Assembly (NCBI GenBank): GCA_022495995.1
Contig: JAFEMH010001290.1
Span: forward strand, 248,001 to 312,000
From: Adenophora triphylla var. japonica
Taxonomy: Eukaryota > Streptophyta > Magnoliopsida > Asterales > Campanulaceae
Reading direction: 5' to 3'
Length of the DNA stretch: 64,000 bases
The notes beneath the pieces are model-generated. The model was not told where the DNA came from, ran no database searches, and saw only the letters and a program-made list of their open reading frames with translations. Shown here one piece after another: positions 2,948 through 44,132 of this stretch. Made by a program: the position numbers and the translations under genes. Numbering within the stretch: position 1 is the first letter of the stretch; every line of letters starts with the position of its first letter.

Positions 2948-2989
2948 ATCCGCGCGGATATGTTTGTAATTTCCAGAGGGCTATAAATT
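2948..2989 (+). promoter_or_regulatory. Tat1 LTR promoter: palindromic box plus TATA
   Basis: The perfect palindrome ATCCGCGCGGAT (2948-2959) is followed 22 bp later by TATAAATT (2982-2989). The TATA lies inside an inverted repeat, GAGGGCT...AGCCCTC. The same palindrome recurs in the 3' LTR (19890-19901) and in the antisense-gene promoter (14555-14566). The inferred role is Pol II promoter of the genomic RNA; the box is a candidate binding site for a dimeric protein. Confidence 0.7.
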
Positions 2990-4173
2990 GAGCCCTCCAG
3001 TCACAAAAATAAGGAAGAAGAACACATTTTGCACCGAACCTCTGGCGAAATATAGAGAGAAAACAGTGAGAATTCACTTGAATTGTCACCTTTTTCTCTC
3101 CAATCTTTCCCAACTCATACTCATCCACTCACTCTCATATTAAAGTCCTAAACACTCATACACTCAAGTCAAACACTCAAGAACTCTTCCTAACCCTAAA
3201 TCTCATCCATGCATGCATCTTCAAACTACAAAATGTAGTTCTTTCATCTTCTTGCTCTAGATCTAAGAAGATCACCATGGAAGACCATCTCCATGGATGA
3301 TCTTCTACCAAGATCAACATTATTCTCAAAGTTTTTTCTTGTTTACTTGCAAAAACACACTTTCAAAACCCTAAAAAACCATTTTCAAGCACTAAATCTT
3401 GATTTCAAAGGATAAAAATCCCCTTCCCAAGCAAATGAAATGCTTAGTCCTAATGTACGCCAAGGATGGTTTGGTATAGTTGATTCACCACTAAAATGTC
3501 TAGTGATCACTAACCAAAACCTAGGGAAATGGGGACAAGCATGGATGCAAAACCCCCTTTAAAATCATATTTTCTTTCTTGAGAAGTTGCTGTCCAGTAG
3601 CAATTTTCTCAGACCTCAGTCCATGGTCTTAATTTTTGGACACAGATGAACTTGGAATTTGGTGTTGACTACAAAATACTTTTTGTAGCCAACATCCAGA
3701 GATTTCCAGACATATTTTTACTTTATTTTTTGGGTGAGTAAAACTCCTCTTTTCAAATTTTCTTTCAGAGGCTAGTTCATCAGCTTCTGGGAATCCAGAT
3801 CTCATATCTGAGGTTTCCAGAAGGTTTTGACCCCTCAAATCTTCTCCAAAATGGAAAATTCCTTCGCACAAACTTTATTTAAGGTGTCTAGAACAACTTT
3901 CATTCTCTGAGTTTATCCAGATTATGAAGTTTTAAGACCCTTGAATCCATTTCAAAATCAAAGGTCCACTGCCTTTTTCATTCTGGCAGAAATGGCTCTC
4001 AACTTCAAAAGGTCTTTTGAGTACCAAATCTCAATCCAAAAATCTTCCAAAAAATCATGGGATCAGTTTAAAGTCTTAAAAAGAGTTCCCAATTTTTACT
4101 TCTCTGAGTTTCAACTTATTTTGGCCAAAACACACACACACACACACACACACAAATGATTTTCAGCTTGGAA

Positions 4174-4241
4174 GACTCGTTTTACGAGGCGCGTCGGGTG
4201 CACACTAACGTCCTTCCCGACGCGTAACATGACCTCCGAAC
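4174..4241 (+). promoter_or_regulatory. Conserved double hairpin near the LTR 3' end (Tat1)
   Basis: Hairpin 1 is CTCGT-TTT-ACGAG (4176-4188). Hairpin 2 is CGCGTCGGG (4190-4198) with CCCGACGCG (4216-4224). They are followed by the conserved string GACCTCCGAAC (4231-4241). The same arrangement with different but mostly complementary stems is found in two other Tat LTRs of this window. It would lie in the transcribed R/U5 part of the RNA. The identical 3' LTR copy is at 21142-21190. Confidence 0.65.
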
Positions 4242-4298
4242 CTAAATCTCTGATCTCGGGCTTTTTTCAAAGTTTTGGCCCTCAAAATTAAAATGGCG

Positions 4299-4309
4299 TG
4301 GCGACTCCG
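4299..4309 (+). other. tRNA-Arg-complementary motif inside the LTR
   Basis: TGGCGACTCCG repeats the first 11 bases of the true PBS, which starts 74 bp downstream at 4373. It is preceded by ATGGCG. The same motif sits near the end of the other two Tat LTRs (21940-21950 minus strand; 31237-31245). It could be an auxiliary primer contact or a relic of PBS capture. Confidence 0.7.
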
Positions 4310-4372
4310 TTTTCGTTGATTTTTTTCAAACACAAAAATGGGAAAATTTTCGGATACACACATTCATCACAG

Positions 4373-4391
4373 TGGCGACTCCGCTGGGGAC
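4373..4391 (+). promoter_or_regulatory. Primer binding site for tRNA-Arg
   Basis: TGGCGACTCCGCTGGGGAC begins one base after the LTR. It is complementary to the 3' end of plant tRNA-Arg(ACG) as I recall it, the primer known for Ogre/Tat elements. It starts minus-strand cDNA synthesis. Confidence 0.9.
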
Positions 4392-6779
4392 TAAGCTTTT
4401 AAAAAAAATGGTATTTGGTATATTGGTGGAAACCACTAAATTTCCCGTTATCGCCTCCTAACACGAGTCGGGGATAAATTGTGGTCTAACAATCCCACGT
4501 ACCGGTATCACCGTTTTAAAAAAAAAAAGCTTTTGAGGGTCAAGCTTCCGTCCCGGCTTTGAAAATCATTTTTGTGTGTGTGTTGATTTTTTTTGTACAG
4601 TTTTCATGTTGTTTTGGCCGCCTCGGAGAAAGTCAAAATTTTGACTGTCGGAATAATGTCCCTAACTGTCGGAATTTTCGTGCTTACGTGCTTATGTGCT
4701 TATAAAAAAATCAAAAAAAAAGGATTTCAAAAAAAGAAGAAAATTCTCAAAAAAAAATCATGCATCATATTTTTAAGACACATAAAAAAATCTCTATTTT
4801 ACTCGGAAAAAGAATATAGGCTGCTTGCACACTACGCGCACGTGACCGTACACGCACACTACGTCCTTAACCCGGGAAAATCCTTGTCGCGGTCCGTTTG
4901 GTCTTATTACGCCTCTCGGATGAGCACAGGACTACCCAAACATCCCATGGAGCCTCGTGTCGACCATGCACTTGTCCGTGACACACTTTGTCCGAGACCC
5001 GGTTGGTTTTTAGTCCGGTCTCTGTGTCATGCCACCGTCCGTGTATAGACCTTTCCTTTCAAGCCTTTGTCGGCATACCGACTCAATATCTTTCGGGTCC
5101 CTAATCGGTCGAAGTTGCCGGTTTTCCGCCGCAGCATTTTGACCAAGATATTGACTCGCGCCTTGACTTCGGCTCGGCGGCACAAATTATACACCGACTC
5201 CCGGCATTGACACGAGTCATCAAGGATTAATGACTATTCCATGCCTAATTACTACTTTTAACCGACGACAAGTCAAGATCAATCGTGGACGCTTATCGGT
5301 CAAATCATGCCGAGCTTTTGTCGAGCCCTCGGACATGATCTTGACTTTCGACGTCGGCTTTGTCCGTAATTTACATCGAATGCTCGTTAAGACTCGATTA
5401 CCCGCCGACTTTTAGGATCGTTTTCTTTCGGTCGGTGGGACCCGCTTGCCCTATAGGACCCTCGCCGGGTGTCCGCCCACCCCGGGAAGTCGAAATACGG
5501 GTGGAATACGAGGGGCTTATAGACGTAGTGACGGGGCCCACCGATCCAGAATCGAGTAGTTTGCGAAAAAGAAGAGCAATCTTTTCCAACCGATTAGGTT
5601 AATAAAACATGTTTTAAGTAAACGTGAACAAATAAGCTGCATGTTGCATGAGCCAAAAACCCAAACACCTACCCCCTTCCATTCCCAGACATCCGAACCT
5701 TCATGTCCTTTCCCCATGACTCCGCACAAAGCTTGGTTTCGGGCACCGGTCACCGTTTGATCGGTTGGGAAGAGTCAAGCGCATCGTCGGCTTCACCGTT
5801 TGTTCCGACTCCGGGTTTGAGAATGTACGCATCGGCCAGTAATGATGGGGATAACGTCACTCCGCCTCCAGGGACCCCTCGGACAGAGCAACGGTGGAAT
5901 CGGTTAGCGAGAACGAGATGAGGTTACGACAGAAGCACGGCTAAACGGCCTTATGGATGCTATTAAGAGTCACGGTGCGGCCGCCGGCCTCAATCCAGAT
6001 GGCACCTTCACCGTGGAAGAAGACGAGGATGCCAACCCCACTCTCGGTCGCCACGATTACACCAGATGCCGCCACCCACCTCCTATGGTGCCATTACGAG
6101 AACCCGTGCTCCTCGATTTTCGGGTCGACCCGGCTCCCAACCACGAGACCACCGGATCCATGCGGCAGACGACACAAATCGGTGGGGGCAAAATCGCACG
6201 GAATGTCTTCTCATGGTTGGGGCTATCTCGGAATGCCACGGCTAATCGGGATCTCGCCTCGGTTCGGAACCGATCAATCCGGACCTTCACAGCCAGCTGC
6301 AGCGACTTGGAATGCCGCCGCAACTTGGTTACGGGCCGCGATCAGAGCCCTCACCGAACAGCACTAGTTCATTGCTCCTCACACAAATCCATTCCTCACT
6401 CGCACTTCTATGGGTTACCAAGCCTCCATCCCGGTGTCATCCGAATCACCAGGACCGCAGTACCCCGGAGCTACACACCTTCACCATGGCGGCCATGCAA
6501 TTCAACAATACGGGACGGCGGCCCGCACTCAAGCCTACTTACGGGCCCCACTCTGGAAATCCAAGTTATCCGGCTACATCGGGCTGCCCCCACCTACTTT
6601 GCCGGTTGAAAATCAACAGCAAGCCGCAAGGTTCTACCCTTTTGCTCGAGGCTCCTACTCATGCTCCCCAGGGTAACTCGGCCCGGGACGGGTTTTCACC
6701 TACGTCCCCGGATCGGCCGTTCCCTCCACCGATCTGCCTCCAGTGGTAGCTCCTCTCTCTAGCTCGGCCACTAGCTTGA
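4392..6779 (+). other. Tat1 leader, no intact frame
   Basis: Untranslated leader and decayed 5' coding sequence. The first 400 bp are A-rich; the part after about 4800 is CG-rich. Several short overlapping frames exist, but none has a recognisable domain or extends across the region. Ogre-type elements often carry an extra ORF here; none can be supported. Confidence 0.5.
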
Positions 6780-7680
6780 ATGCCATGGTTCCACCACAAG
6801 ACCCTCATCGGCCTGGTTCATGGAACAACACAAGGAAATGAAAGCACGTATCGCCGAACCGATCGCCAAGAAGTGTGCCTTCCGCCTACGAGACCGGACT
6901 CCATTGTTCCTCTGCCCCACAAATTCGTGATGCCTAATCTGGATCTCTTTGATGGGACCGCATGCCCCGAAACCCATTTGGACACATATACCTTGGCGAT
7001 GAAAGCCAAAGGATGTACCAATCGGCCGTGGCCGACTATTTGATGGGCCTATCCTTGAAGTCCGAGTGCCTTAAAGTGGTTCTTCCGTTTGAAACACGAA
7101 GCCAGGGCCACATGGGACCAGATTACCAATGCCTTCACGAGAAAAATATAAGGCCAACTTGGAATGGGAAACAAATAGAGTTGACCTACAAACAACGGTG
7201 CGGCGCCACGATGAGAATGTTGGGGACTTTTACAAGCGGTGGAATCGAAACTCGGTGAAATGGCCATCCCCCTTCGAAGAGGAACAACTGGACATCTTCC
7301 GGTCATGCTTGAAACCACATCGAGAGCCTCCTCGGTCACTTCCCATACTCGGACTTACGGGCCATGGTTAACTCTGCGGCTAAGTTTGAAAAGGCCTACA
7401 ATCGGCAAGAAGGTTCTTTGCACACCTACGAGATATCGGGCTCCTCCTGCAAACACCGCCCCTTTGCTCTGCTAAAGGCAAAGAGATGATTAACTATGCG
7501 GGACAGAATGTAATAACACGACTCCTTTTGCTCCCAGGGAAAGCAGTAGAGCCTGCCCGGACCAAGCGGGTCATAAATCTCGAAAACTTTGGAATGCCCC
7601 TGAATGACATCTTTAGGGGGCTGGTGAAAGAAGGCTTGCTTTGCGGCCTTTGGATAATTTCCAACCCGTGAAATCCGAAT
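6780..7680 (+). pseudogene. gag (pseudo): Tat1 gag remnant
   Basis: Frameshifted pieces resemble the Tat gag retroelement domain that builds the capsid. One piece reads LPHKFVMPNLDLFDGTACP then ETHLDTYTLAMKAKG, matching the usual 'P.f..fdGt.dP..HL..y' start. Another, near 7150-7300, reads DENVGDFYKRWNR then PFEEEQLDIF. A stretch near 7560-7630 (LENFGMPLNDIFRGLVKEGLL) resembles the gag-protease linker of Ogre polyproteins. At least three frame changes separate the pieces, so no capsid protein can be made. Confidence 0.65.
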
Positions 7681-7847
7681 GCTCCCCGGATACTACAAAG
7701 TATTGTGCTTTTCATCAAGCTCACGGACATCGGCGACAGTTTGCTTTACTCGAAAAAAAGGCAATCCAGGGCTAATAGAGCAAGGAAAATTGGAAGGCCC
7801 AGGGGCCTAACACGATCAAAAATCCGCTGCCAAGGAACCATAATCAG

Positions 7848-13185: not shown

Positions 13186-14463
13186 TCATGAGGGTTGGCC
13201 TCGCCTCGGCCCTCCTCCTCTCGAAACAGTCGGGACCTCCGCACCCACAATGGCCTCACGCCGTCCGAAAATAGCCACCTGAGTCTCTCCTGCATGCCTC
13301 TCATACCAATCCAGTACCAAGTGGTCAGAACACCGGTCTCGGACGCCCGAGAATGACCCGAGGAGGAAAGGCATCATACCTCCATGCTCGGGAAAGAAAT
13401 GGAAACACCGAGGGATCATCCATGGAAACAGAGCCACCACCCCGGTGGCTATATCATCAAAACCCTCCAAAGGAACTCCGCTCCAAGCCAAACTGTCTCG
13501 TGACCGCAGCCGGAATGTAGAAACCGGACCGAGAAAGCCCCGGAAGCATAACCACACGGGACCCGTCCTAAGCACTCTGCGAGTCTCCACCCGCCAATGA
13601 GGCACCAACCATCTCGATATCTTCTGGGCCCGACGACCCGCCATCCAACGCGCCCACGAGCCCCGATCATCAAAATCTACATCGACACCTCTCCCGGCAA
13701 AAGTCCAAGGCTCGATCATATCGTAGGTTTCCCGAAGAACCCCCAAACGCTCCATCGCCCACAGGTCAAGAGGAACGGGCTGCCCCCGCGCATATACCGC
13801 CGTCCGGTAGCTAATCTGTCAAGAGCATGAAAAGTCTCCCCGAATCAAAGGAACGACATCTCTCGCCTGTGCGACAGTGAACGACAACATCCAAGCAGAG
13901 ATCGATGATGCATCCCAAAGGAATAGACCATGAACAGGGTGCCAAACATGCAAAGTGCAAAGGCATCCCAATAGGCATCATCTACCAAACCTAGGCCCCT
14001 AAATCTGTCGGGAAGACCGGAAATATCGAAATGATCGGGACCGCGGATCATACCTTGCGCTTCCTCCGGGGAAAGATGAAGGAGGACGCACAATCTTTCG
14101 GCAAAAGAAGCCCCTCCGGGCAAAGGAACCGCTATCTCTTCCACCTCCGGACCTCCAAGTAAGGCCCGAAATTCTTCGACAGTCGGAACAATCTCGTTGA
14201 AGGAAAGGCAAAAGACATGCCTTCTAGTATCCCAAAATGATGAAGAAGCTCTTAAAAGCTCATAATCCGGAATCAATTCCTTGAGAGACCATAAGCACTT
14301 CACCTTGTATCTTTCTTCAAAGAAGAACCTCCTCTCATGCATGATTTCCTGGGACCAATCCTTGAACTTTTCAAAGAACAACATTTGCCTTTCTTTGGAC
14401 AATTTTGGAGAATTTTCGGCCATTTCCATGGTTTTTCTCTCTTTCTCCCCGAAAATGGTCATT
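13186..14463 (-). pseudogene. Tat1 antisense ORF 1, DUF7745-like protein
   Basis: Antisense to the element, downstream of pol. I chose the ATG at 14463 (MTIFGEKERKT), about 60 bp downstream of a box-plus-TATA promoter. The protein contains DYELLRASSSFWDTRRHVF, NEIVPTVEEFRALLGGPEVE, then HLSPEEAQGMI; after a frameshift near 13800 it continues with WLVPHWRVETRR and VLDWYERHAGETQV. These match the Tat2 gene at 44242-45743 along the whole length and resemble the plant DUF7745 family, which is related in style to plant mobile domains (from memory). Function unknown; a nuclear or DNA-associated role is inferred. One frameshift disables it. Confidence 0.75.
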
Positions 14464-14523
14464 TTGAATTTGGAGGTTGAAGAGGATATTTGAATTTGAA
14501 ATAAAGCAAGACCAGGTCGAACC

Positions 14524-14566
14524 AAAATTAAAGGACAGTGTCGGATGCGGTCCCATCCGCGCGGAT
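14524..14566 (-). promoter_or_regulatory. Antisense promoter of Tat1 ORF 1
   Basis: On the minus strand the palindrome ATCCGCGCGGAT (14555-14566) is followed after 22 bp by the TATA-like TTTAATTTT (14524-14532). This repeats the LTR promoter's box and spacing. The ORF's ATG lies about 60 bp further on. Confidence 0.65.
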
Positions 14567-14905
14567 AGGATTGCTTTCCATCGAGAAAAAATGCCAACGG
14601 TCAAAGCCGCTACACCAAAAGAGGAATATTCCGTCCCGGTTGCTCGAAACTTGTGCAAAAACCTCCCCAAATCAGTCCATATATCAAACACCCTTGCAAA
14701 AAAAAAAATCAAGGCTCATGCAACACTGCATTCATACTGCATTGCATTCATCAATAAAATCCTAAATTATTACATTCCAAAAAAAAAGAGTGTGCGTAAA
14801 AAAAAAAAAACAAACAAACATCAATAAAATCCTAAATTATTACATCAAAAAAAAAATGTGCATAAGCTGTACAAATCTAAATCTCAATCTCAAATCTCAA
14901 AAAAA

Positions 14906-17759
14906 TCAATCGGAGTCTCCAGCACCCGATGTCTCCCCCCGGCCCCTCTTGCGACTCGGGCCCGCCTCCTCAGGAGCCCTTAAAATCTCGGGCTCAGAAT
15001 CGTCCTCGTCTCCAGAAAGAGGTTCATCAGGACCAACCGGCACGCTCTGATAGGGCAAGCCGAGATCTGCGAAAAATCGTACCCGAAGGTGAAGGCGTCG
15101 GACTCCTGCACGTACGAAGACGACCCGCCATGCTGCCATACGTGTCCCTGCCCGTGTGGATCCCCGAGAATGACGTGATCCGAAGGCAACACCGCGCGGG
15201 GATCAAGCGAGAGGAGACAAAGGAGTCTCGAAGAAGTCTACGAGCGAATAGGGGAAGCCTCCGTCGACGGGCGCCGGCCGTGGTCGCCTCGCTCTAGCAC
15301 GAGGAGCCCCGCAAGCGACCATCCTCCCGATGAATCTCTTGGCCCCGATCACTTGCTTCGTCGGCTTCTCGACGACCACCTCCGAAAACCGCACAAAAGC
15401 AAAAGCGTCAAAAAAAAAAAAAGAAAAGAAAAAGGAAGTGATGCTAAAGATGATGAAACAAAAGAAAGAAGGGAAGAGGCAGAAGCGTAAAAAGCCATAC
15501 CTTCATACCCGGACGAGGCCGGAAAGCTCGTGGAAGTCGCTCGGGCTGAGGGATCTGCACCCTCAATCGGACCCCATCCTGGATATAGGAAAAATCCGTC
15601 CGAGGGTACCGCGGGATCCCAAGCCCCTCCCTATTCAGAACACGAGGCATCCTCGGCCTCCTCAAGACGAATGTCGCATATGGCTCAATCGCCACGAAAT
15701 CCGAGAAGTGCGCCGGCTCGTAATCATCCCAGTCACGGACCGATCACTCGGGTGCATCATATCGGCGGGAGGCTCCACCGGTGTCCTCAAAGGCGAGTTC
15801 ACGCCATGCTTTGGCGCGTCACCCTCTCTCCCGGATAATAGGCATCGCAGTCGGACCTCTCGTAATCCTCCGCCGCACGGCCCAAATCTCGCCGCCCTTC
15901 ACCGCGCCACCTCAAAGCGATCCCAGGGAAGAATATCATCTCCTCATCTGTCTCGGCCTCCGTCAAAGGAAGGCAATCCGCGTACCCGAGAGTCGTACAC
16001 CCCCTGGAGCTTATCTTCTCCCGGGCATGCTTGGACCAAGACCGCATGGCCGGATACGCCCGACGTACTCCGCCGCCGCCACATCGTGACGTGGAAAAAC
16101 TCCAACGCCCATACTGCGAAAGGTAAAAAATCCAATCAATCCAAAGGTCTGAAAAGAAAAGTGTGTGCTCAAAAAAAAAAAAAAAAGAGGAAAGCAAGAA
16201 GAGAGCTTATACCTCCGGGGCAAACTCAAAGCGGTACAAAGAGCTCACAGCCTTCCTACTGCACCTATCAAGAGCAAAATAAAGCTCTACCAGCCGGCCT
16301 CTCCCCACGAGACATCTCCGGCCGTCTCCATGTCCTCCAAGGACCTCGGCAAGGCAAAGGCGCCGTCCCTCAGCATGCCCAAAGAGGGTGCTCGAGAAAG
16401 CAAACCACAAGAAGGCCCTAGCGATCTGCTCAGCGCCTATCCTCTCCTCCCCAGCCTCGTAACTCACGATGGTCTCCACGATCTTCCCGTAGACCACCGC
16501 ATACTCCATCCCCATCCCCTTTTTGGGAATAGGGGAAAATCCTGTAAGAGCTCGCAGACAGCATCGCCGTAGCCATCCCGCCACTCAATGCTGCGTCCAT
16601 TAAAGGACAGGCCCGTAATCGCAGCATAGTCGGAGGGCGTAACCGTAGCCTCGCCCCATAAGAAGTGGAAGGTGTGGGTCGCGTCCCACCAATGCTGCGC
16701 CAGAGCAAACATCAAGCCCTTGCTCTTAGGGAACTTGACCAGTCCCCTCAAGAGCTCGACAAACTCCCAAAGCCCCGTCTCGACAACAATCTGTCTCGGA
16801 CTCGGCAAAGCTCCTCGGCCCGCATTCGGAAGCCGGTCCCACAAGTCAATCACGGACTCCACCGATCCTCGAGTCTTCATTTTGTTCAGCTGCTCCGTCA
16901 CAAAACGGTTTCCGCCCTGCAAAAAAAAAAAAAGAGAAAATGTCAAAAATTTTTTTTTTGCATTTGCATTTAAAAAAAAAAAAATTTCGACAGCATAACA
17001 GCATACAATGAGCATAGCCCCATTTTTCTCACAGAAAAGACAATTTTCAGCAAATCCCAATGCATTCAAAAAAAAAAGATGCATTCCTACGGAAGTAAAA
17101 ACTCCGTCCCATTTTCATAAAATAACATGCATACCATCCATCATCTCAAAAAAAAAAAAAATTTGCATACATGCATATCATCCATCTTACATGCAACGGG
17201 AGGAAAAATCCGTCCCACTTTTCAAAGAAAAAAAAATATATCCTAAACATACATACATCCCATATTGGCAAAATGCCCATTCTTTCAAAAACAAAATGCA
17301 TGCATTGCATCATCACAATTCACAATATTCCAAAAAAAAAATGTGGCAAAAATGCCAATTCTTTTCCCAAGCAAAATGCACATTTTGGGATACCCACAAA
17401 TTCATTGCAACATGCATATCATCAAGATCAATATTCAATAAAAAAATCATCATCAACATGCATAGCATCAAAATCAAAATCCAAGGCCAAGAACATGGTC
17501 ATTTTCGAAATTACCAAAAAAAAAAAATCAAATCACCCAAAATTCAAATTTCAAACAAGAAATCAACAAAGGGATCAAAGGGTTTCAAAGTATACCGTTC
17601 GGAGATTCGAATCCGAAGCCCAATGTTGCCAAGCATCGGGGTAATGCTCCTCCGCAACCGATTGCGAAAGATTGTAATGCCTCCTCATCCGGACGAGCTC
17701 CACCGCCTCTCCGCTACCGGGCCACGTCCTTGGCCTTGAAAAGCGCCTTCCCGTGTTCC
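14906..17759 (-). pseudogene. Tat1 antisense ORF 2, spliced Plant Mobile Domain protein
   Basis: Antisense gene with four inferred exons. Intron 1 is 16917-17595, intron 2 is 16114-16212, and intron 3 starts at 15500; all begin GT, and introns 1 and 2 end in CAG. Exon 2 encodes the PMD hallmark SKGLMFALAQHWWDATHTF, then WGEATVTPSDYAAITGLSF. Exon 3 includes EPYATFVLRRPRMP. The C-terminus is acidic (SGDEDDSEPEI) with a KRGRG patch. The Tat2 copy (25034-31538) has the same exon order and near-equal intron 2 length. Cellular PMD proteins (MAIN, MAIL1) affect transposon silencing in Arabidopsis; a regulatory role here is inferred. Several stops and frameshifts are present. A 30-bp direct repeat lies just beyond its 3' end (14750-14850). 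Confidence 0.7.
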
Positions 17760-19591: not shown

Positions 19592-21336
19592 TGTAAGTGC
19601 TCCAATTTGAGCTTGTTAGAATTTTCGTTAGAAAATTAACGAAAGTTATAACATTTCTAACAATTCCTAACAATCCTAACTTTTCTAACAAAGTGAGGGT
19701 AAAATGGGCATTGTTATTTAAGGTTAAACCTTAAAAAGAATCTCAAAAAGCAAAACAAAAGAAGAAAACCAAAAATGGCAATGGCTGGAAACACAAAAAA
19801 CTGGCTGTTAATTTGAATTTTGAAAAGAAATATTCTTCTTGTCCAAAGCTGGAGCTGCATTTAATGAACAGTGCACGCTGACTGGATCCATCCGCGCGGA
19901 TATGTTTGTAATTTCCAGAGGGCTATAAATTGAGCCCTCCAGTCACAAAAATAAGGAAGAAGAACACATTTTGCACCGAACCTCTGGCGAAATATAGAGA
20001 GAAAACAGTGAGAATTCACTTGAATTGTCACCTTTTTCTCTCCAATCTTTCCCAACTCATACTCATCCACTCACTCTCATATTAAAGCCCTAAACACTCA
20101 TACACTCAAGTCAAACACTCAAGAACACAAGGAAGATTGGTAAACCCTCCTCTTCCTAACCCTAAATCTCATCCATGCATGCATCTTCAAACTACAAAAT
20201 GTAGTTCTTTCATCTTCTTGCTCTAGATCTAAGAAGATCACCATGGAAGACCATCTCCATGGATGATCTTCTACCAAGATCAACATTATTCTCAAAGTTT
20301 TTTCTTGTTTACTTGCAAAAACACACTTTCAAAACCCTAAAAAACCATTTTCAAGCACTAAATCTTGATTTCAAAGGATAAAAATCCCCTTCCCAAGCAA
20401 ATGAAATGCTTAGTCCTAATGTACCCCAAGGATGGTTTGGTATAGTTGATTCACCACTAAAATGTCTAGTGATCACTAACCAAAACCTAGGGAAATGGGG
20501 ACAAGCATGGATGCAAAACCCCCTTTAAAATCATATTTTCTTTCTTGAGAAGTTGCTGTCCAGTAGCAATTTTCTCAGACCTCAGTCCATGGTCTTAATT
20601 TTTGGACACAGATGAACTTGGAATTTGGTGTTGACTACAAAATACTTTTTGTAGCCATCATACAGAGATTTCCATACATATTTTTACTTTATTTTTTGGG
20701 TGAGTAAAACTCCTCTTTTCAAATTTTCTTTCAGAGGCTAGTTCATCAGCTTCTGGGAATCCAGATCTCATATCTGAGGTTTCCAGAAGGTTTTGACCCC
20801 TCAAATCTTCTCCAAAATGGAAAATTCCTTCGCACAAACTTTATTTAAGGTGTCTAGAACAACTTTCATTCTCTGAGTTTATCCAGATTATGAAGTTTTA
20901 AGACCCTTGAATCCATTTCAAAATCAAAGGTTCACTGCCTTTTTCATTCTGGCAGAAATGGCTCTCAACTTCAAAAGGTCTTTTGAGTACCAAATCTCAA
21001 TCCAAAAATCTTCCAAAAAATCATGGGATCAGTTTAAAGTCTTAAAAAGAGTTCCCAATTTTTACTTCTCTGAGTTTCAACTTATTTTGGCCAAATCACA
21101 CACACACACACACACACACAAATGATTTTCAGCTTGGAAGACTCGTTTTACGAGGCGCGTCGGGTGCACACTAACGTCCTTCCCGACGCGTAACATGACC
21201 TCCGAACCTAAATCTCTGATCTCGGGCTTTTTTCAAAGTTTTGGCCCTCAAAATTAAAATGGCGTGGCGACTCCGTTTTCGTTGATTTTTTTCAAACACA
21301 AAAATGGGAAAATTTTCGGATACACACATCATCACA
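19592..21336 (+). repeat. Tat1 3' LTR
   Basis: 1,745 bp, nearly identical to the 5' LTR: about seven substitutions, one 24-bp insertion near 20127 and small indels. The palindromic box is at 19890-19901, the double hairpin at 21142-21190. Ends CATCATCACA followed by the target copy ACGGG. Confidence 0.95.
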
Positions 21337-23288: not shown

Positions 23289-23361
23289 TATTTATAGGCA
23301 GTCTGGATAAGGCTAATGAGGCCGTGCGGCTAGGAGTCTTCTCCTAATGCAGCCGTGCGAC
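23289..23361 (-). promoter_or_regulatory. Tat2 LTR promoter: two palindromic boxes plus TATA
   Basis: Minus strand: a degenerate box GTCGCACGGC (23352-23361), then 31 bp downstream the perfect box GCCGCACGGC (23321-23330), then 24 bp, then TATAAATA (23289-23296). The same two-box pattern precedes both antisense genes of this element. Confidence 0.7.
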
Positions 23362-26015: not shown

Positions 26016-28501
26016 TGTAACGACCCTAAACCTAGGCACTAATTTAACATCATATTGGTGCTTTTAATATTATTGTTAATATTATGTGTTCATTTTTATA
26101 TATTTTTGATTTCTTATATTAGGATGAGATAATTGAGAAAATTAAATAAAGTCCATGGGGAAAGTATAATAATTGACAATAAATAAAATGTGAGTAGTTA
26201 GGCTTTAGTTTGTGTAGGGGAAAGAAGTAAAAGGTTGAAAGCCTTTAATCATTGGTATGAGGGGACCATACCTTTCTTCCCTTTTTCCCTCACTCTCCCC
26301 CTTCAAGATCCGCCCCCCCCATACCTCCTTTACCATTCTTATACTCCATCTTCCTTCTTCTTCTCCTTCATTTTTATTTTCTTTTACAAATCTCCATGGA
26401 AGCTACATTATGAAAGCCTTACTTTCCAAGAGCCTACTAAGTTCAATTCTACTCCATTTTCAAATCCAATGGTACTTTTGAGCTTGGAGCAACTAGGGGA
26501 ATCTATCAACCTAAGAAGATCATTATTTCATCCTAAAATCCTAAGGTGAGTTATTATGACCTTTTTCCTTCATTAAATGTTCATGAACTAATGAATGTTG
26601 TTGTTATTGTTGTATTGATTTGGTTGAGGGCTTTGAAACTCTCTTGAAGTTGGGATTTGATAAATGACCTAGAATGGTACTCATTGTTCATGAAAGTTGA
26701 TTTAGAGTGTAGGAATGGATGGAGTAAGTTATAGAATTAAAACTTGGAAGGGGGTAGTAAAATGGGTGAAGATTCATGTAGTAAAGGATCTAAGTTCAAA
26801 TCATTTTTAGTTACATTGTTGGTATGAAAGGAATGAGGATAGAGAGCCTTCTAAGTGCAAAATTTGTATTCTTGGGTTTAGATTGGTTCAGCAGCTGCCT
26901 GGGAAGAAAAACGCTTCGTGGGCTGTCGCCCATGTGGGATGGGCGGTCGCCCATGTCCACAGAAAATACCCTCCTCTTAACCTTGTTTTGGGCGGTCGCC
27001 CATACCCCTTTGAGCGGTCGCCCATGTTGACAGAATTTGGCCCAGTTTCCTGTTTCGCTGAATTTTCACTAGTAACCTCCTAGCATGATCCTTAACCAAT
27101 ATAAAGTTTGGAACCTAACCTTTACGGATATGAATTAATCCTTTTAACCTGAGGTTATACTTAGAACAATTGTATCACTTAATGACACCTTAATTGGGTT
27201 ACTATGGAACTACGGAAGCACGTTAAGTCTGAATCAGAAATTGTTTGGCAATCTTATCTGGCTTTATCAAATGTGACCCCAACTTGATAAATTTAGCATG
27301 AATTCCTATAGAGACCTTGTAATACAGAATATTGTCCGGAAATTGATTATTAAGCTTGATTCGTACTTCACCAATGTAGTTCGAACTTGGGAGGTAGATC
27401 ATGAACTCTTATTGAGGTTATCCGAGGTTGTGTAATGACTGCGTAGGAATTGTTTATGAGATGATGTTATATTGCTTATCCCCTTTGTGGATTATTTAGC
27501 ATGTTATTATATTATCCCAAGTGTGGATTATCCGGTTGTATTGTTACCTCATTTGATTACATATTCATTGATTATGTTATGCATAGTGTATTACTTAAAT
27601 GTTGCACTATGATGTTGGTTGAGCATGAGTATATTTTACCATGTGGCTATGTTGCTTATCCCCTTTGTGGATTATATTTCAAGTAACTATTATGTGCTTG
27701 ATAATGTGTTTAATCAGCTGATATTGGGGGTATAACATAATACGATCAATTATGGAAGTGTGACCTAATGTGATCGGATTATGTTATACCTGTGACCGTC
27801 CCCTCCTGTGGCCACAGGTTGGGGTATAGCATCTGTAGTGAGCCAAAAGCCTTACAGAGTTGCTACTATCTTATTTGGTTCCCTGAAAAATGGGTCTTAT
27901 AAGATGTGAGTATTGCTTAAGCAGCTCACCTAAGATTGGAGTATTATTATACCCAATGTTTTACGACTATTGTTCAGACGGGAAAAGGTAAACCAAGGTA
28001 ATGTAAGGTGTTTACAGCTTTTTCAATGTGTTATATGCAACTTGTTATGTGTTGCATTTTACTTGGCATATTGTTGCATTCATAATAGCTTGCTGAGATT
28101 TATTCTCACCCCTCTCCCTTTAATGTTTTTAGATTCCGAGACAGGCCGACCGGCCAAGTAAGGGCGGTGAGGAGTTTGGAAGTGATTTTGAGAATTGTCG
28201 GGGTATGAATAGGTTGGCATAGAAAGTATAATTTGGGTATAATTCATTTATGGAGTTGTATTTATAAACCTTAATTTTATGTTATAACCTATGTCTTTTT
28301 GTAACTAAAACAGTTTCTTGCTTTCAAAGTTGGTCAACTCTTTCTCCATTGTGGAAAGGTGTAGAGTTATTTTGAAATGGTTATGAAAATTATGTTTATA
28401 TTTGAAAGTTAAATCAAAGTTTTAAAAGTTAAGGAAATCTGGGTTAGTTTGAGGATGCTCCGGCTCGTGACACGTGTAGGTCCCGGGTCGGGGTCCTCAC
28501 A
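26016..28501 (+). mobile_element. Solo LTR A (Tekay/Del-like gypsy)
   Basis: 2,486 bp, TGTAACGACCC...GGGTCCTCACA, flanked by GGAGC (26011-26015 and 28502-28506), with no internal region. Homologous to the LTRs of the Tekay-like element at 49521. Its last about 900 bp (from about 27590) are nearly identical to that element, whereas the first 1.5 kb are much more diverged and carry a different palindromic box. It disrupts the PMD gene. A solo LTR arises by recombination between two LTRs. Confidence 0.92.
26920..27023 (+). promoter_or_regulatory. GGGCGGTCGCCC palindrome cluster in solo LTR A
   Basis: Perfect copies at 26941-26952 and 26990-27001, and variants at 26920-26931 and 27012-27023, each followed by CAT. 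No clear TATA follows closely. The related Tekay LTR has a different palindrome in the equivalent zone. Confidence 0.6.
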
Positions 28502-30124
28502 GGAGCTGACAGTGACACCTGCAGATCTCACTGCTATTACTGGCCTGCAGTTCACCGGGAGGCCTGTGACCTGGAGGAACCATATTACGGCGGAGGAGTT
28601 TAGAGCTTTGGTTGAATTTGAGCTTATTCCTAAGGGTCTCGGTATGGAGACTAGGAATGTCGAGGTGACAGTCCAGAACTGCATGCATGAATTTGCTGCT
28701 AATGAGGTGACTGCCTACCAGCTTGCGAGGGCCTTTGTGTGGTTGATGCTGTCAGTCACCATTTTTGCTAATTCTTGGACGCTGGCTATGACTTGCCTTC
28801 TTGACTCCTTGGAGGATGTTGATGGGATTGGGACGGTCTCTTGGGGCCCGACCGGATTGGTGGAGCTTTACTTCTCCCTAGACATGTACAGCCGGAATAA
28901 GGCTGCTTCGATGGATTGCTTCTCCTTTGCTCTTGAGGTATTCTCACCTTCTTTCCTTTCTCTTTTCTTTTCTGTCTTTGAGACTTTTAAGAGAGAAAAT
29001 GACCCTTTTGATGTTTTGAACATGCAGGTCTGGTTTTGCGAGGTGATCGGGTTCTTTCCGTGGAACCAACAGAGCGATGCTACCATCTTTCCCGCTATGA
29101 TCCGCTGGAGGGGAGATGCGAGGGATAAGTTCACCGGGAAGACCCAGATCACTTTTGATTACAAGATGGTGAGGCCAGTCATCAACAGGGATGGGCACGA
29201 CGGAGTGGACTTTTACCCTTGGGGGAGATATCCAGAGATTTTGCTAGGAGAGGCCGTGGAGGCGACGAGACAGAGACGGTGGTTGACCGGGCTGACATGT
29301 GATGTCATCTATCTGGGGGACCGCTTCTCTAGGCAGCATGGCCATATCCCTCCATTGGATGCCATTACCCCTCATGATCCTCCAGCACGGATGCTGCAAC
29401 CCAGGGATTGGTCGCGGATGACATAGAGAAATATCAGGCAGGAGTAGCAGCTGAGGAGTATTTTGACATGGCTACCCCTTATGCTACTTTTGTGGAGCAG
29501 CGACTGAGGACGCCACAGAAGCTAGTGAAGCTGGCTGTCACTCAGGGGTATGGGGAGGCCGAGCCTACTGACCCGCCGATGCCTCCTGCTCATCTTTCTT
29601 ATGTAGTCAATGGGGTACCGAGGAGGTTCAGGATACCTGTCCCCGACACTAGGGAGCCCCAGTATACTCTGCCACCAGACATCACTGTAAGTACACTTTA
29701 GGGTCTTTTCCCTTTTTTTTAGACTTCTTTGCTTTTTGCAATTTCAAGATTTTCTGAGATTTCCTTTTCTTTTTCTCAGGTTCCAGCTCGTACTTAGGAT
29801 GGCTTGGTCAGGCAGAATAGGGGCTGGAAAGATGTATGTCGGTCCCTTTTGAAGAAGCTGGCTTGCGCTTCAAAGGCTGCAGCGAATGTGCAGGAGCCTG
29901 TGCGCAAAAGGAGGCATGTAGGGGGCACGGCTGTAAGTACCCCAATCTGGATCACCCCCTTTCAAACACACGGGAAACACCGCAGACTCATCAACGTAGT
30001 CTCGGAGACCTCTCTCACTCAAAACCCTCTCAAACCCCCAACCAAACCAAGGGAGGAGCCTTCCTGGGATAAAAAGGGACAAAAGGACCTTTTGGGAATT
30101 TTCAGGAAATCAGAAAAGCAATTA

Positions 30125-30405
30125 AGGTCCGTACGGACCTCTTTGTGTCAATGATTACTAAATCCCCTTAAAGTCCACAATATTCCCTCAAATCCCGGAA
30201 GAAATGATTACTCCCCTGCAGAGTTGGTCCGTACGGACCTCTTTGCATGCAAGATGGTCCGTACGGACCTTATTACTCAGGGGACACCATCATTCCAGAA
30301 TATTCACCATCATTGCAGATTCCCTCAAATCGAGGAAATCCAAAATTACGGATAACCAAGAAGGTCCGTACGGACCTCTTTGCTCCGAAATTTTTACTAT
30401 AAATA
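30125..30405 (+). promoter_or_regulatory. Promoter of solo LTR B: four palindromes plus TATA
   Basis: AGGTCCGTACGGACCT is perfect at 30125-30140 and 30362-30377; the 14-bp core is at 30226-30239 and 30256-30269 (30 bp apart). CTTTG follows three of the four. TATAAATA (30398-30405) lies 20 bp after the last box, the same spacing as in Tat1 and Tat2. Confidence 0.7.
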
Positions 30406-30689
30406 GAGGGCTCCCCCTCCTCATTTTCACACACCTCCCTCTTCTCTCTTCCTCCCTTAGCCTTCTGGCTCCCCTCTAAGTCCTCTCGAGGGACTCCCGG
30501 CCCCTTTCGGATCCTTCCGAGGCCTTCCGAGCTCCCTTGTGGTGCTCCGAAGCCTCTCCGAGCGCTCCCGAGACGCTCCCGCGCTGCCCCGAGGCACTCT
30601 CGAGGTACTCTGAGGCCCCTAGTGGTACTCCGAGGCCTTGCCTGGTCTTTCCACGGTGTCCCGGCTCTTTTCGAGTCAAACCGACGATC

Positions 30690-30840
30690 CCAAACCACGC
30701 CGAAACTCTGCCCGAGTGACTCCTGCCACCACAACGCACGCCGAAACTCTGCCCGAGTGATCCCGACGATCCCCACGCACGCCGAACCTCTGCCCGAACG
30801 CAGCCAGCAACCTCAACTCACGCCGAAACTCTGTCCGCAG
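30690..30840 (+). repeat. Four spaced repeats in the leader of solo LTR B
   Basis: CGCCGAAACTCTGCCCGAG-type units recur about every 42-49 bp, downstream of the TATA. The preceding 30480-30660 is rich in TCCGAGG-like strings. Function unknown. Confidence 0.6.
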
Positions 30841-31074
30841 ACAACCGGCATCTCCCGAAGCAATCCCGATCCGTACCGGAACGCTACTCCGACCTCAAAC
30901 ACCATTCCCCAGCGGAAGACAGACACGAACCAACATTGGTAAGGCTTCCTTCCTATACTATTTCAATACATTTTCATACATAGCATACAATGTAGACATC
31001 CGATACAGCATGCATTTTTAAAAGCACACACACACACACACAACATTTAAAGGATATTAGGGGTATCCGAAAGA

Positions 31075-31134
31075 CTCGTTTTACGAGGCTACTCGGGTGA
31101 GCTCTAATATTCTAATATTCTCTTCCCGGGGAGT
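31075..31134 (+). promoter_or_regulatory. Conserved double hairpin (solo LTR B)
   Basis: Hairpin 1 is CTCGT-TTT-ACGAG (31075-31087). Hairpin 2 has ACTCGGG (31091-31097) against CCCGGGGAGT (31125-31134), pairing as ACTC/GAGT and GGG/CCC with a 3-nt bulge. ACCTCCGAAC follows at 31141. Confidence 0.55.
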
Positions 31135-31624
31135 CATCTGACCTCCGAACTCAAAATCTCATCACACAAAAAATAGTTTAAAATTATCTTTAAACTGATG
31201 CCCTTTTTCAATGTTTTGGGCTTAATAAAAACGGCGTGGCGACTCTACAAATGCGAAAACAAACGGCGAGACACATCGCTCCATCGCGAAAGATGCCAGA
31301 TGCCGGGGCGCGAGCCTCTCGGATCCGGGTAATTTCAACGGCATCCACCTCATCGGCTTCAGAGTACTCCTCTAGCGCCATGCCTCGGGGACGGGGACCC
31401 AATGCCGGCATCCTGGAGCATCTGGCGGAGTATGAACATGTGAATGTTCATCTTTCTGATGTGAGCGACAGTGAGGACTTGATGAGAGAGGCGAGTTTTT
31501 ATGAGTTGAGCAGTGATGAGGAGGAATCGGAGGCCTAGGAGGTCTCTAGAATCAATTTATTAGGAAAAACAAACAATGAACAATTTTATGCACACTTTGT
31601 TTATTTTTTGCTTTATTTGGGCGC

Positions 31625-36805: not shown

Positions 36806-36870
36806 GACACGTTCTATACTACGACTCGAAAACGGTAAATAACAGTCTATTTTTTTTTTTTTTTTATGAA

Positions 36871-36917
36871 TACCCCCACCCACAAACTAAGAATTTGCGA
36901 TGTCCTCATTGCATAAA
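36871..36917 (-). promoter_or_regulatory. Post-ORF block 1 of Athila (hairpin plus PPT-like tract)
   Basis: Sense strand: GCAATG-AGGA-CATCGC hairpin, then TTAGTTTGTGGGTGGGGGTA, directly downstream of pol. Compared with block 2 the stem keeps pairing through a G-U type change. Confidence 0.55.
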
Positions 36918-37029
36918 CAGATTCCAACGCGAATTCAAAGCTAACAAGTAGTGGTAAACTGAACATAAAGACGAAAGCGTTAAAAGTTACCTACGGTTGG
37001 GTTGCCTCCCAACTAGCGCCTTTGTTTTA

Positions 37030-39863: not shown

Positions 39864-40600
39864 AAAGAATTAATTTGGCCTCTTGTTCTAGGGTCAAATC
39901 TCGAGGCAACTATCACAGGTAAAGTCTCGCCCTCCCCTAGAAAAGCATATTTTAAATTAGAGGGGAGGGGTTTTAGTTCAAGAACCGGTGGAACCACAAC
40001 TGATGGCGCATACTTCTCATTGAAGTAGCCTAGGGAGTGAGACGGACCATTAACAGAATAATGTTCCTCGGCCTTATTTTCAATGGCCATAACTTCGAAA
40101 CCCGCATTATCCCTAGTTTTCTCACTGCCATTCAACAACATCTCAAGTTCATCACATGCTCTATCATGCCACAGATACTCATGCACACAATCATCTACTC
40201 TCTCCACAAAGTTACAAGAATTCCCATTGTCCATTGGATTTTTCATAATATCATGCACAGAAATTTCAATAGTTTCGTTGGCCACAGTCATGGAAAGAGT
40301 TCCATTGCCAACATTAATAATAGTGTTTGTCGTCGCCATGAATGGTCGCCCAAGTAGAATTGGGGAATCACGACGACTACACTCACTATTAGGCATCTCA
40401 AGCACAACAAAATCCACAGGTATGATCAATGAGTCCACCGAACCAAAACATCTTCCACAATCCCCAACGGTCTTTTAATAGATCGATCCGCTAGTTGAAG
40501 AGCCATGGATGTAGGTTTCAATTCAGCAAACCCATATCAAGATACATATAATGGGGTAACAAATTAATACTAGCACCTAGGTCCAACATCGCCTTCACCT
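39836..40600 (-). pseudogene. pro (pseudo): Athila protease region
   Basis: Protease C-terminal half is visible: IIPVDFVVLEMP and PILLGRPFMATTNTIINV, the usual 'LGRPFL.T....id' motif. The active-site region upstream (about 40480-40600) is frame-broken but still reads like a protease start. Followed by the protease-RT linker. Confidence 0.75.
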
Positions 40601-42415
40601 TATTCGAGTTCCCCATATTGATAGAAATTATAATACTTCCGGGTCCTTTTGTTTTGGTGGGAGGAGGTGTTGTGCCACTGCACTAGCATTCTCTCCAAGA
40701 AAAGCTTTCTCATCCTTGCCATACTTTGGTTTCTTGGAATTAATTTCTTTGAAAAACTTGGCATAAGCCGGAATATTTTTTATCACATTCAACAAAGGGA
40801 GATTGATGTTCACTTTAGAGAACATGTCCATCAACTCCGACATTTGTTGATCCATTTTATTTCTCATAAATCTTCCAGAAACGGCATACTGTACATATGG
40901 ATTGGGGGCTGGAGAGTCAACTTTAGATTTTTCCCCCAATTCATTAGTACCTTCTTCCTCATTAACAATCTCAACAACAGGAGGGGGAGTAGAAGATGAA
41001 GAAGAAATTACCTCGCTACCTACCTGTTTACCATTCCTGAGTGTGGTAATGGCTTTTGCTTGGTGACCTTGACTCGGGAAGGTCCCCGACTTGTGCCCCC
41101 GCATTGCTTGAACAGCCTTCACCATTTGCCCTATTTGGGTCTCCAATTTTTTCATAAAGCCTTCATGATTCTTTGCCGCCTCGTTGTCGTTCGCCTCTCA
41201 TCTGCTCTACTGCTTCCTCCCAAGGCTCCTTCCTTCTTTCAAATGGTCCTGGTGGAGGTGGAGGATGGAGAGGCTTATTTTGTGGATTCTGATTACCTCC
41301 CCACGAGAAATTAGGATGATTCCTCCACCCTGGATTATAAGTGTTGCCATAGGGCATGTTACGTGGATGCCTTGGGGCCGTCCATACATAGCATTTAATT
41401 GTTCAGATCACAACCAAACCGCACACCACTTGGACACATATTAGTAGCATGAGAATTTAAACCACAGTAAGCACATAAATCATTTAACACATTGGCACTA
41501 GAGGAGGTGCCTTGAGCAAATAACTTGTCAAACTTACTATTTAAAACAAAGAATTTGCTTGGATAAATTATCAGCTTAGTCAAATCCAATACCCCCTTGT
41601 TTTCCCCTAGAACTCTTTTGTTGAGAATTAGCACTCAACATTTCAAATAAGGCCTTAGTCTCCTCAGGGGTCTTGACTCCTATAGAGCCTCCGCCGCATT
41701 ATCCACTACAGACCGAGTGGAATCATTCAAGCCATCATAGAAAGCTTGATTCGAGAGGGTAAAGAAAAATTATGCCGAGGACATTGAATAAGCATCATAT
41801 TAAATCTCTCCCAAGCTTCATGGAAAGGTTCCCCCACATCTTGTGTGAAAGTCATTAATTTCTACGTCTAAAAGTAGACTGCAGATGATGTGGGTAATAC
41901 CTCCCGAGAAAAATATCTTGCATCTCGGTCCATGTGCTTTGATGCTTTGGGATGGAAGCATCATTAACCAAGTTTTCGCCGCCTTTTAGAGTGTAAGGGA
42001 AGCACTTAAGTCTAATCTGAACTTCAGTCACTCCCTCTCTTAATAGAAACTGGGCTACCGTCATAATGTATTCTTTCAAGAAAGTCAAGGCATCCTCGCC
42101 TGGTAGCCCCTGAAAACTAGGTAACATAGCAAAATATTGACCCTTGACCTCTAAATTCTTTGCTGCTTCGGACAGCACTATGCATGAGGTAGAAGTGTCT
42201 ACCCTAGGTCTCAGGTAATCATTCATTGTTTGAGCCGGTGGTTCTGCCATCTCGACTTTTTCTTCCTCTACCTCGGTGGTGGAGGGTTCAGACTCGATGT
42301 CCGAATCTGAAAAGAGAGGATTAAAGAGGGGATCGCCCTCAAATGTTTCCTCAAGTCTATTGATGTTATCGTCCAATGGAACCAATGTAGGCTTCAAAGA
42401 ACGACGACCTTGCAT
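40600..42415 (-). pseudogene. gag (pseudo): Athila gag
   Basis: Capsid polyprotein starting at 42415 (MQGRRSLKPTLVPLDDN). The Athila gag signature is present: MNDYLRP, then EVKGQYFAMLPSFQGLPGED. A CCHC-like knuckle is read near 41430-41480 (CAYCGLNSHATNMCPSG). Frameshifts occur near 41855, 41640, 41390 and 41160, so several pieces are needed to cover the protein. The 5' end lies 35 bp downstream of the PBS. Confidence 0.85.
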
Positions 42416-42450
42416 TCACTACCTAACTTACTTGTTTACTTGCAACAAGT

Positions 42451-42467
42451 TCCCGGCAACGGCGCCA
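42451..42467 (-). promoter_or_regulatory. Primer binding site for tRNA-Asp (Athila)
   Basis: Minus-strand TGGCGCCGTTGCCGGGA, complementary to the 3' end of tRNA-Asp, the known Athila primer. It lies six bases inside the LTR. Confidence 0.85.
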
Positions 42468-42473
42468 AAAACT

Positions 42474-43792
42474 TGATGGAGAAAAATTCCTCTAGTAATA
42501 AAAACCGAGCAAGTGTACTCACTACCGGTGTAGCAGTATGCACGAGCAGGGGTCGAACCACAGAAACTTGTTGGTAAACAAACGCAGTAAAAGTAATGAA
42601 TATAGTAACCACAGATTTTTGATTTGAGAGTAATAATCTAATCCTAAAACAGAAATAACAGATTAAAACTAAAGAACGCGATTTAAACAGAACGAATTAA
42701 CTCAGATAAACACGGAGATTCACGGATTGGATTCACAATTACTTTCACCCTATGCTATTTTTATTGCTGAAAACATTAATCTCAAACTATGATTCATTCA
42801 CAAAAGTAAGGATTGGGACGGTGTGGTGCCCGGATTGCAACCCTTTTAATTATTATCAAGTCGCGTTTCTGCATTACGGCCACACAACAATCAAATAATT
42901 AATCAACACAATAGAATGTTAAATCTAAACCCTTTTGATTTCTATTATGGCCTCAATTAGGTTTAATCTTCAAAATGTTGTTCAATTGTATCAATCCCCA
43001 AATTAATGGCGTAATCAATACCCAAATAATTAAAAGATTAATGTTTTGAAGAACTAGAAAGAGATCAATTGGGAAGAATTAAATCAATAGCATAAAGATC
43101 TAGTAATCGCTACAACCAATCCGCAAATCTAAAGAACTTAGCTACGCAAAGACATAACGAAAACAATACTCGATCATAAAATAAAAGAACATCAAAACCC
43201 GAGAGATCCGGAATTGATGAGCAATAATTGTCTACGAAAACTCAAAACCTAGAACAATAATAATATCCAAGATTGTTTTTAAAAACTGCCGTTGAAGTAT
43301 AAATACTCTAGGGCAAAATACAAGGGAAAAATGTGCGAAAAGTCGAGACCGCCCATCATAAGTTGCCGAAATGCAGTGCGAAAACGGGACAAGCGCGGCC
43401 GCTCAGGTTGAGCGCGCCCGCGCACTTTGGCAGTAACCCTGGCCTTCAAAACGACGTCACTTGAGCGCGGCCGCTCTGGGTTGAGCGCGCCCGCGCTTGT
43501 TGGCCGAGAATTGGTCTTCAAAATCTTCAATGGAGCGCGGCCGCTCTTAGGTAGAGCGCGGCCGCTCTGGTGCCTGGAACTGCATCTCGAATTATTTTCC
43601 AATTTCCTTGCTCTGCTCCGCTCCAACTTGGTTTCCTTGCCATTTTATTGACCAAAATCAACACTTAATCATCCTTTTCCCCTGTACTCATAAACACTCA
43701 ACAACAATATTAAAACAACATAAAACCCGGGATTTTTAGCCTAGAATAGGTTCGTAAACATGTAAAATGGGTGTGTAAAAACACATCCATCA
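42474..43792 (-). repeat. Athila 5' LTR
   Basis: 1,319 bp, TGATGGAG...CATCCATCA. Palindromic boxes at 43392-43403, 43463-43476, 43533-43546 and 43554-43567. Followed by target copy GGCGC. Confidence 0.95.
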
Positions 43793-43797
43793 GGCGC

Positions 43798-44060
43798 CGA
43801 TGGGGCGAAAACAATGTATTAATGTTTTATTTGCTTTTTAAATTTATGCTTTGTGAATTTACATATTACTTGAGCCTCGGGGCAGTTTTTTGCTTGGAAT
43901 TGGGGCTGAAACTGGGCCAAAATAATTTGTGATGACACATAACTGCATGGTTAGTGTTTGGATATGTTTTTATACATGTTTTTGTTGGAAAAGTGGGGTG
44001 AAAACTCCCTTTGGGCAGCAACTTGGTTGCTGCAGATTTTTTCTCACATCAGGCAAATGA
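43798..44060 (+). other. Tat2 spacer between the two antisense genes
   Basis: Continues the Tat2 sequence interrupted at 31619 by Athila. AT-rich, no frame. Together with 31539-31619 it is the 3' untranslated region of the PMD gene and the upstream DNA of the DUF7745-like gene. Confidence 0.5.
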
Positions 44061-44132
44061 AGCCGTGCGGTCTGGTCTCTGAAGTAAATGAAGCCGTGCG
44101 GCTCACAGTTCTGTCTGGACTGGTTATTTTTA
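44061..44132 (+). promoter_or_regulatory. Promoter of Tat2 DUF7745-like gene: two boxes plus TATA
   Basis: A degenerate box AGCCGTGCGGT (44061-44071), the perfect palindrome-type box AGCCGTGCGGCT (44092-44103) 31 bp later, then 21 bp, then TATTTTTA (44125-44132). Both boxes are preceded by AAATGA. ATG at 44242. Confidence 0.7.

Follow-up and report, generated by a model that had tools for sequence, protein, structure and literature searches.

Why should three promoters of one retrotransposon, two of which read against the element, carry the same short palindrome? The question is raised by a stretch of 64,000 nucleotides from Adenophora triphylla var. japonica (contig JAFEMH010001290.1, positions 248,001 to 312,000; hereafter the window), which contains two Tat-type Ty3/gypsy elements, Tat1 and Tat2, and a solo long terminal repeat (LTR) of a third family, B. 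Antisense genes lie between pol and the 3' LTR in Tat1, Tat2, B and a further family, Tat3, and each of the four families has both of them, a PMD gene and a DUF7745 or DUF7745-like gene. Passages of two papers give the role of Tat-type antisense genes as unknown (PMC7264820, PMC11963269). We find that each family has a private dyad at three predicted promoters, that of the LTR and those of the two antisense genes, and that this dyad changes in concert at all three.

Palindromes at the Tat promoters

One palindrome per family recurs at the LTR and at both antisense genes, this is ATCCGCGCGGAT in Tat1, RGCCGYRCGGCY in Tat2, GGTCCGTACGGACC in B and TCTCGYRCGAGA in Tat3. The core YCGYRCGR is common to all four family boxes, the flanks vary symmetrically and each full box contains symmetric CpGs. 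A first-pass annotation of the window had placed such boxes in Tat1, Tat2 and the solo LTR of B, and they are found at all of these places:

2948..2959, plus strand: Tat1 box of the 5' LTR, ATCCGCGCGGAT, with TATAAAT 22 bp on
19890..19901, plus strand: Tat1 box of the 3' LTR, ATCCGCGCGGAT
14555..14566, minus strand: Tat1 box of the DUF7745-like promoter, ATCCGCGCGGAT; the same box is at the same place in the relatives L033 and L034
17926..17936, minus strand: Tat1 box of the PMD promoter, TCCGCTACGGA, with an odd centre
23320..23331, minus strand: Tat2 box of the 3' LTR, AGCCGCACGGCC, with one outer mismatch and TATAAAT 23 bp on; GGCCGCACGGCT in L035
24879..24890, plus strand: Tat2 box of the PMD promoter, AGCCGCACGGCT; GGCCGTACGGCC in L035 and AGCCGTGCGGCT in L036
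44092..44103, plus strand: Tat2 box of the DUF7745 promoter, AGCCGTGCGGCT, with a second, imperfect copy 31 bp off
30125..30140, plus strand: family B box 1, AGGTCCGTACGGACCT
30225..30240, plus strand: family B box 2, TGGTCCGTACGGACCT, 30 bp from its partner, box 3
30255..30270, plus strand: family B box 3, paired with box 2
30362..30377, plus strand: family B box 4, with TATAAAT about 20 bp on (distance taken from this LTR in the full-length element L038)

The box at the Tat1 PMD promoter has apparently decayed from a fuller form, because relatives hold CTCCGCGCGGAC (L033) and GTCCGCGCGGAG (a Tat1 copy nested in L036) at this promoter. The pair of boxes at the Tat2 DUF7745 promoter is also present in L035, again 31 bp apart. 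In the solo LTR of B the annotation had described a single box 20 bp from the TATA-like site; the distance of about 20 bp to TATAAAT is borne out, but there are four boxes, beginning at 30125, 30225, 30255 and 30362.

Beyond the Tat1 LTR box (window 2960-3000) an A/T run, ATTAAAT, reads in the antisense direction, and its flank, CACTGTTC, resembles that of the DUF7745-like promoter (14520-14555). The promoter of the Tat1 LTR may therefore work in both directions, and the antisense promoter may have come from it.

Comparison with shuffled sequence and with the genome

Core palindromes were defined by the core YCGYRCGR and at least five of six complementary pairs, and 200 dinucleotide shuffles of the window served as the null. 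There are 11 core palindromes in the window, whereas the shuffled sequences have 0.42 on average and never more than 3. Nine of them are at Tat promoters or in the LTR of B and two (15190 and 36323) are elsewhere; the strict count leaves out the PMD box of Tat1 and the LTR box of Tat2. The spacing of palindrome and TATA, for which equal results from shuffled sequence had been named as a refutation, exceeds this null: a TATA-like site (at least 6 of 7 matches) lies 17-33 bp from four of the 11, the shuffled sequences giving 0.035 on average and at most 2.

The same patterns are abundant across the genome. ATCCGCGCGGAT followed by TATA within 30 bp occurs 5,355 times (2646+2709), the reversed control once (1+0). 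The B box with CTTTG and TATAAAT occurs 6,687 times (3295+3392; reversed control 0). Pairs of boxes number 13,555 for B (control 0) and 703+748 for Tat3 (control 0). Individual places were taken from the first 100 of each pattern.

Families B and Tat3

Family B provided a prediction. That GGTCCGTACGGACC would be present at the antisense promoters was put in writing before internal sequence of this family was obtained, and it was then found in L038. The B antisense genes were recognised by their similarity to those of Tat1 and Tat2. In L038 there are two copies of GGTCCGTACGGACC or its 12-bp core at each antisense promoter, DUF7745 and PMD, and four in the LTR. Besides these eight, no core palindrome occurs in the 9 kb of L038, where 0.24 would be expected.

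Tat3 was sampled as twenty 10-kb stretches (L013-L032), which surround 20 of 118 listed DUF7745 matches. Its genes have about 25-39% protein identity to those of the window in local matches, and the gene order is identical. The box TCTCGYRCGAGA was scored with one mismatch allowed and with C or G at the third pair. It is present at the DUF7745 promoter in 19/20 copies (not in L013) and at the PMD promoter in 19/20 (not in L029). In the zone named LTR, from a TGTAGA start and the TATAAATA box in the one LTR covered, it is in place in 15 copies and displaced, presumably by insertions, in a further four; L029 has none.

The annotation had also suggested a search for co-variation of the box within elements. 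The relatives L033-L036 carry the box of their family, and the true family pairing of LTR and antisense boxes gives the fewest mismatches of the 576 possible pairings. This comparison used one representative box per family and promoter, with the Tat1 PMD box taken from L033, and 1/576 is the smallest value that the design allows with four families.

Three further loci were set aside. L034 is related to Tat1 and has boxes at DUF7745 and in the LTR, but there is no PMD box in its 6.5 kb and it was dropped from the three-promoter test. L001, in which a Tat1-like box is followed at 32 bp by a weaker copy, was left out, no gene being recognised in its 3 kb. L039 is a PMD-bearing element in which a 128-bp tandem repeat upstream of PMD (4461-4719) contains GGAGCGATCGCTCC, a dyad with the core CGATCG, in pairs; this dyad is found at 612 places in the genome and at none in the reversed control. 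L039 was not counted as a fifth family, its element class, LTR and DUF7745 gene not being established.

Structure of the box

The outer bases of the box vary by family yet remain complementary: AT..AT, RG..CY and TC..GA, and GGT..ACC in B. Paired outer changes are also seen within families, AG..CT and GG..CC in Tat2, and TCT..AGA and TCC..GGA as well as GTG..CAC and ATA..TAT in Tat3. Such paired complementary changes are expected of a dyad that is read by a dimer.

Boxes that occur in pairs keep a narrow distance, with 12-42 bp allowed in the search. All 50 B pairs listed (100 rows, both strands) are 30-33 bp apart, and the Tat3 pairs among those listed are 19-20 bp apart. Common descent of the copies contributes to this narrow spacing; by hand count, 12 of the 50 listed B pairs have the exact LTR spacer of L038 and eight its exact DUF7745 spacer.

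A WTTG motif lies within nine bases on the element's plus side of 19/23 boxes of Tat1, Tat2 and B, on the other side of 1/23, and at about 7% of random places. The tail is one-sided on the element, its orientation is therefore constant whichever way the promoter reads. Among the Tat1 LTRs the TG of the tail is invariant in 42 distinct tails, hand-picked from 100 listed places. At the Tat3 DUF7745 promoter the CpGs of the box are retained in 93/100 cells, compared with 147/180 for other CpGs (Fisher p 0.012, not corrected for relatedness); this is slight evidence.

Distance to TATA-like sites

From the LTR box to a perfect TATAAAT there are 22 bp in Tat1, 23 bp in Tat2 (given as 24 bp in the annotation) and 20 bp in B. 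A spacing of 20-24 bp had been claimed for every promoter, and this does not hold. At the B PMD promoter the best TATA-like site is at 36 bp; in Tat3, hand counts give about 57 bp for the DUF7745 promoter and, for the LTR, about 57-60 bp to GATAAAA or about 150 bp to TATAAATA. Nor does each antisense promoter have a clear TATA box. When scored against TATAWAW at 17-26 bp with a threshold of 6 of 7, three of six antisense promoters reach the threshold (B DUF7745, Tat1 PMD and Tat2 PMD), as do 6.4% of random places (binomial p 0.0044), and the Tat1 and Tat2 DUF7745 promoters reach 5 of 7 at best. A spacing of 20-24 bp applies to some of the promoters and is no general rule.

The antisense genes

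The antisense genes of the two window elements are as follows:

13186..14597, minus strand: Tat1 DUF7745-like gene, in two open frames (13845-14597 and 13186-13755)
16464..17084, minus strand: Tat1 PMD gene, open part; Pfam PMD 45.2 bits, cut-off 34.9
28449..29426, plus strand: Tat2 PMD gene, open part; Pfam PMD 53.3 bits
44242..44994, plus strand: Tat2 DUF7745 gene, open part; Pfam DUF7745 E 5.4e-5, 22.9 bits, under the cut-off of 26

In the window, both DUF7745-like genes fall into two open frames each and neither PMD gene is complete; alignment to L035 and L036 shows an insertion at about 26017-28502 that separates the preceding part of the Tat2 PMD gene from the open part. Longer open frames are present in other copies, for example of 510-534 codons. 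The DUF7745 pieces of Tat1 and Tat2 are 40% identical; the Tat1 piece has no Pfam match at E <= 0.001, and neither piece has a PMD match at that threshold. A protein search with the Tat2 piece returned 1,392 candidates, none at E <= 0.001.

The three Tat3 DUF7745 proteins that were scanned all pass the cut-off of 34.9 for Pfam PMD (PF10536), with 55.7, 45.9 and 48.2 bits. Because of this, both antisense genes are likely to be PMD relatives, as shown for Tat3 only.

A possible regulator made by the element

What might read the box? In our judgement there is an even chance that the private palindrome at the three promoters of a family is the site of a dimeric regulator made by the element from its two antisense genes, whose binding would activate or unsilence all three units. 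The element itself is the most economical source of such a factor, because the factor's specificity changes with the element family, and the PMD-like antisense proteins are candidates because they are conserved beside the boxes. That a dimeric regulator specific to the family, and perhaps one of the antisense products, is involved had been proposed in the annotation; the idea is plausible, and it gains from the Tat3 DUF7745 proteins that pass the PMD cut-off.

The two PMD-like proteins, alone or paired, would read the box. By binding, the regulator would activate or unsilence its own two promoters as well as the LTR, in a feed-forward loop confined to the family. Protein and box would diverge jointly, so that related families in one genome would be controlled apart. 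A wider proposal, possible although we rate it as rather doubtful, is that the antisense genes of PMD-bearing Tat elements encode PMD-family DNA binders that read a private CpG-centred dyad, a co-evolving, self-addressed password for activation or anti-silencing, and that the promoter-linked function of the host PMD proteins MAIN and MAIL1 may have its root here. The shared family-private box offers a concrete target for the Tat antisense genes and would tie PMD proteins to DNA addresses, and the private boxes suggest how separate control of related families can be achieved.

Several observations weigh against a regulator made by the element. The annotation's claim that the box differs between families and is common to the promoters within one holds in Tat3 and in full-length B; however, a Tat2-like palindrome, GCCGYGCGGC (GCCGTGCGGC; GCCGCGCGGC in L020), lies before the 3' LTR in 12/20 Tat3 copies, and the privacy of the box is therefore imperfect. 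A further single Tat3 box lies between pol and the DUF7745 end (about position 170 in element orientation) in 18/20 copies, with no known gene behind it, and 10 Tat3-type box matches are outside all of the named zones. The box pairs of B and their spacers are similar at three promoters, which fits plain copying of a module too. On the protein side, the DUF7745-PMD profile comparison is weak (probability 68.6, E 4.6e-5), and no DNA-binding fold was shown: the model of the DUF7745-like protein from the two window sequences is poor (pLDDT 34.6), and profile searches against solved structures gave no credible match, the best, 8vd6, covering 27 positions with no stretch passing alone. The sample, moreover, is limited to four families.

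Alternative explanations

The box could instead be read by the host. All promoters of a family would then have acquired a site for one dimeric transcription factor of the host, a different one in each family, and the antisense proteins would act otherwise. Host factor sites are common in LTRs, and the common one-sided WTTG tail could be the site of a shared host partner. Four families would, however, each need a joint switch of factor at three promoters with the geometry of YCGYRCGR unchanged, and no such dyad is present within the 1.5-kb flanks of two presumed host PMD genes, the only host loci surveyed; we consider a host factor rather unlikely. A structural or silencing role, in which the CpG-rich dyads would be boundary, nucleosome-excluding, methylation-sensing or host-silencing sites and not activator sites, seems to us highly unlikely. 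The symmetric CpGs of each full box, their retention at the Tat3 DUF7745 promoter and the additional Tat3 site behind DUF7745 would suit it, yet a purely structural dyad need not be private to a family, and in three families the LTR boxes are placed 20-23 bp before a perfect TATAAAT, like an activator site.

The boxes might also match simply by descent, if the internal promoters came from the LTR, or the reverse, by template switching; the match alone would then be silent on a regulator. The alike pairs and spacers of B speak for this, as do the CACTGTYC and A/T run that the Tat1 LTR and DUF7745-like promoters share beyond the box, and the tail, which points the same way along the element at all three promoters. 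The flanks otherwise differ between promoters, and between the Tat3 promoters the outer flanks change symmetrically (GTG..CAC at DUF7745, ATA..TAT at PMD), which suggests selection on the dyad itself. Copying is thus partly supported and is compatible with a regulator, as the whole explanation we find it unlikely.

Comparison with known systems

A precedent for a regulator made by the element is given by the VANC proteins of VANDAL transposons, described in passages of two papers as reading private tandem motifs (PMC5735166, PMC10398659). In both systems a short motif private to the family is present in non-coding parts of the element, in one orientation, and differs between related families, and in both the reader protein is encoded by the element, for Tat putatively. 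The Tat elements differ in being LTR retrotransposons, not Mu-like DNA transposons, and their candidate protein is PMD-like; the motif is palindromic and CpG-centred, with one to four boxes per promoter in place of dense arrays. The Tat boxes would work like VANC and VANDAL, membership of that family is not claimed. A 2026 meeting report mentions, in the part available, unpublished structural work on VANC and its target (PMC12859917), and a passage of a sunflower paper discusses VANC beside LTR elements (PMC12844716).

Antisense accessory genes in Tat elements are known from Grande, Retand and Ogre. Passages on these elements report an own antisense promoter and a nuclear product for gene23 of Grande (PMC7264820), predicted DNA binding for the antisense TRP28 genes of Retand (PMC11963269), and PMD in 57% of Ogre elements (PMC6317226). 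The elements described here have two PMD-like genes and not TRP28, and those passages report no cis box common to LTR and antisense promoters.

Among host proteins, MAIN and MAIL1 are reported, in passages of two papers, to be needed together with PP7L for genes that have a common DOWN motif, with direct binding left open (PMC7156037, PMC9899485). The likeness is that PMD-family proteins act together and are tied to a shared promoter motif; the difference lies in the motif, DOWN (CATGCAGTTT in MORC1) being distinct from the box. Neither the window nor L038 contains CATGCAGTTT exactly, and with one mismatch allowed it occurs six times in the window and not at all in L038.

In the open-licence literature, with subscription papers largely outside the scope of the search, there was no report of a box common to LTR and antisense promoters, and the term DUF7745 was unmatched in the open-licence literature searched. 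A family-private box at promoters of both directions may be new; anti-silencing by a private motif is already known from VANC and VANDAL.

Other features of the window

The elements that carry the boxes are placed as follows:

2650-21336, plus strand: Tat1 element, LTRs 98.2% identical, 5-bp target duplication ACGGG
2650..4371, plus strand: Tat1 5' LTR, starting TGTAAG, with the ACGGG duplication at 2645-2649 and 98.2% identity to the 3' LTR
19592..21336, plus strand: Tat1 3' LTR, with ACGGG at 21337-21341
29932..31337, plus strand: solo LTR of family B inside Tat2, a 96% match to the L038 LTR, its right end inferred from the resumption of Tat2
46374..48284, minus strand: Tat2 pol piece, with an additional RNase H (RVT_3) and then Integrase_H2C2 and rve (Pfam)

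Tat2 is on the minus strand, with its 3' LTR near 22-24 kb, and extends towards the right end of the window, broken up by other elements; after the solo LTR its sequence picks up again at 31338 (alignment to L035 and L036). The additional RNase H ahead of the integrase, a trait of the Tat clade, is present, as typed on the Tat2 pol piece, and a passage of PMC6317226 gives this order as that of angiosperm Tat elements.

A nested LTR element at 31625-43792 contains GCGCGCCCGCGC dyads, repeated in its LTRs and inside it (32558-32857, 36380-36470 and 43407-43706), these are another family of CG-rich inverted motifs. Inside a nested LTR element on the opposite strand there is an Rfam match to the C/D-box family snoR71 (41767-41869, plus strand; 47.9 bits, gathering 40).

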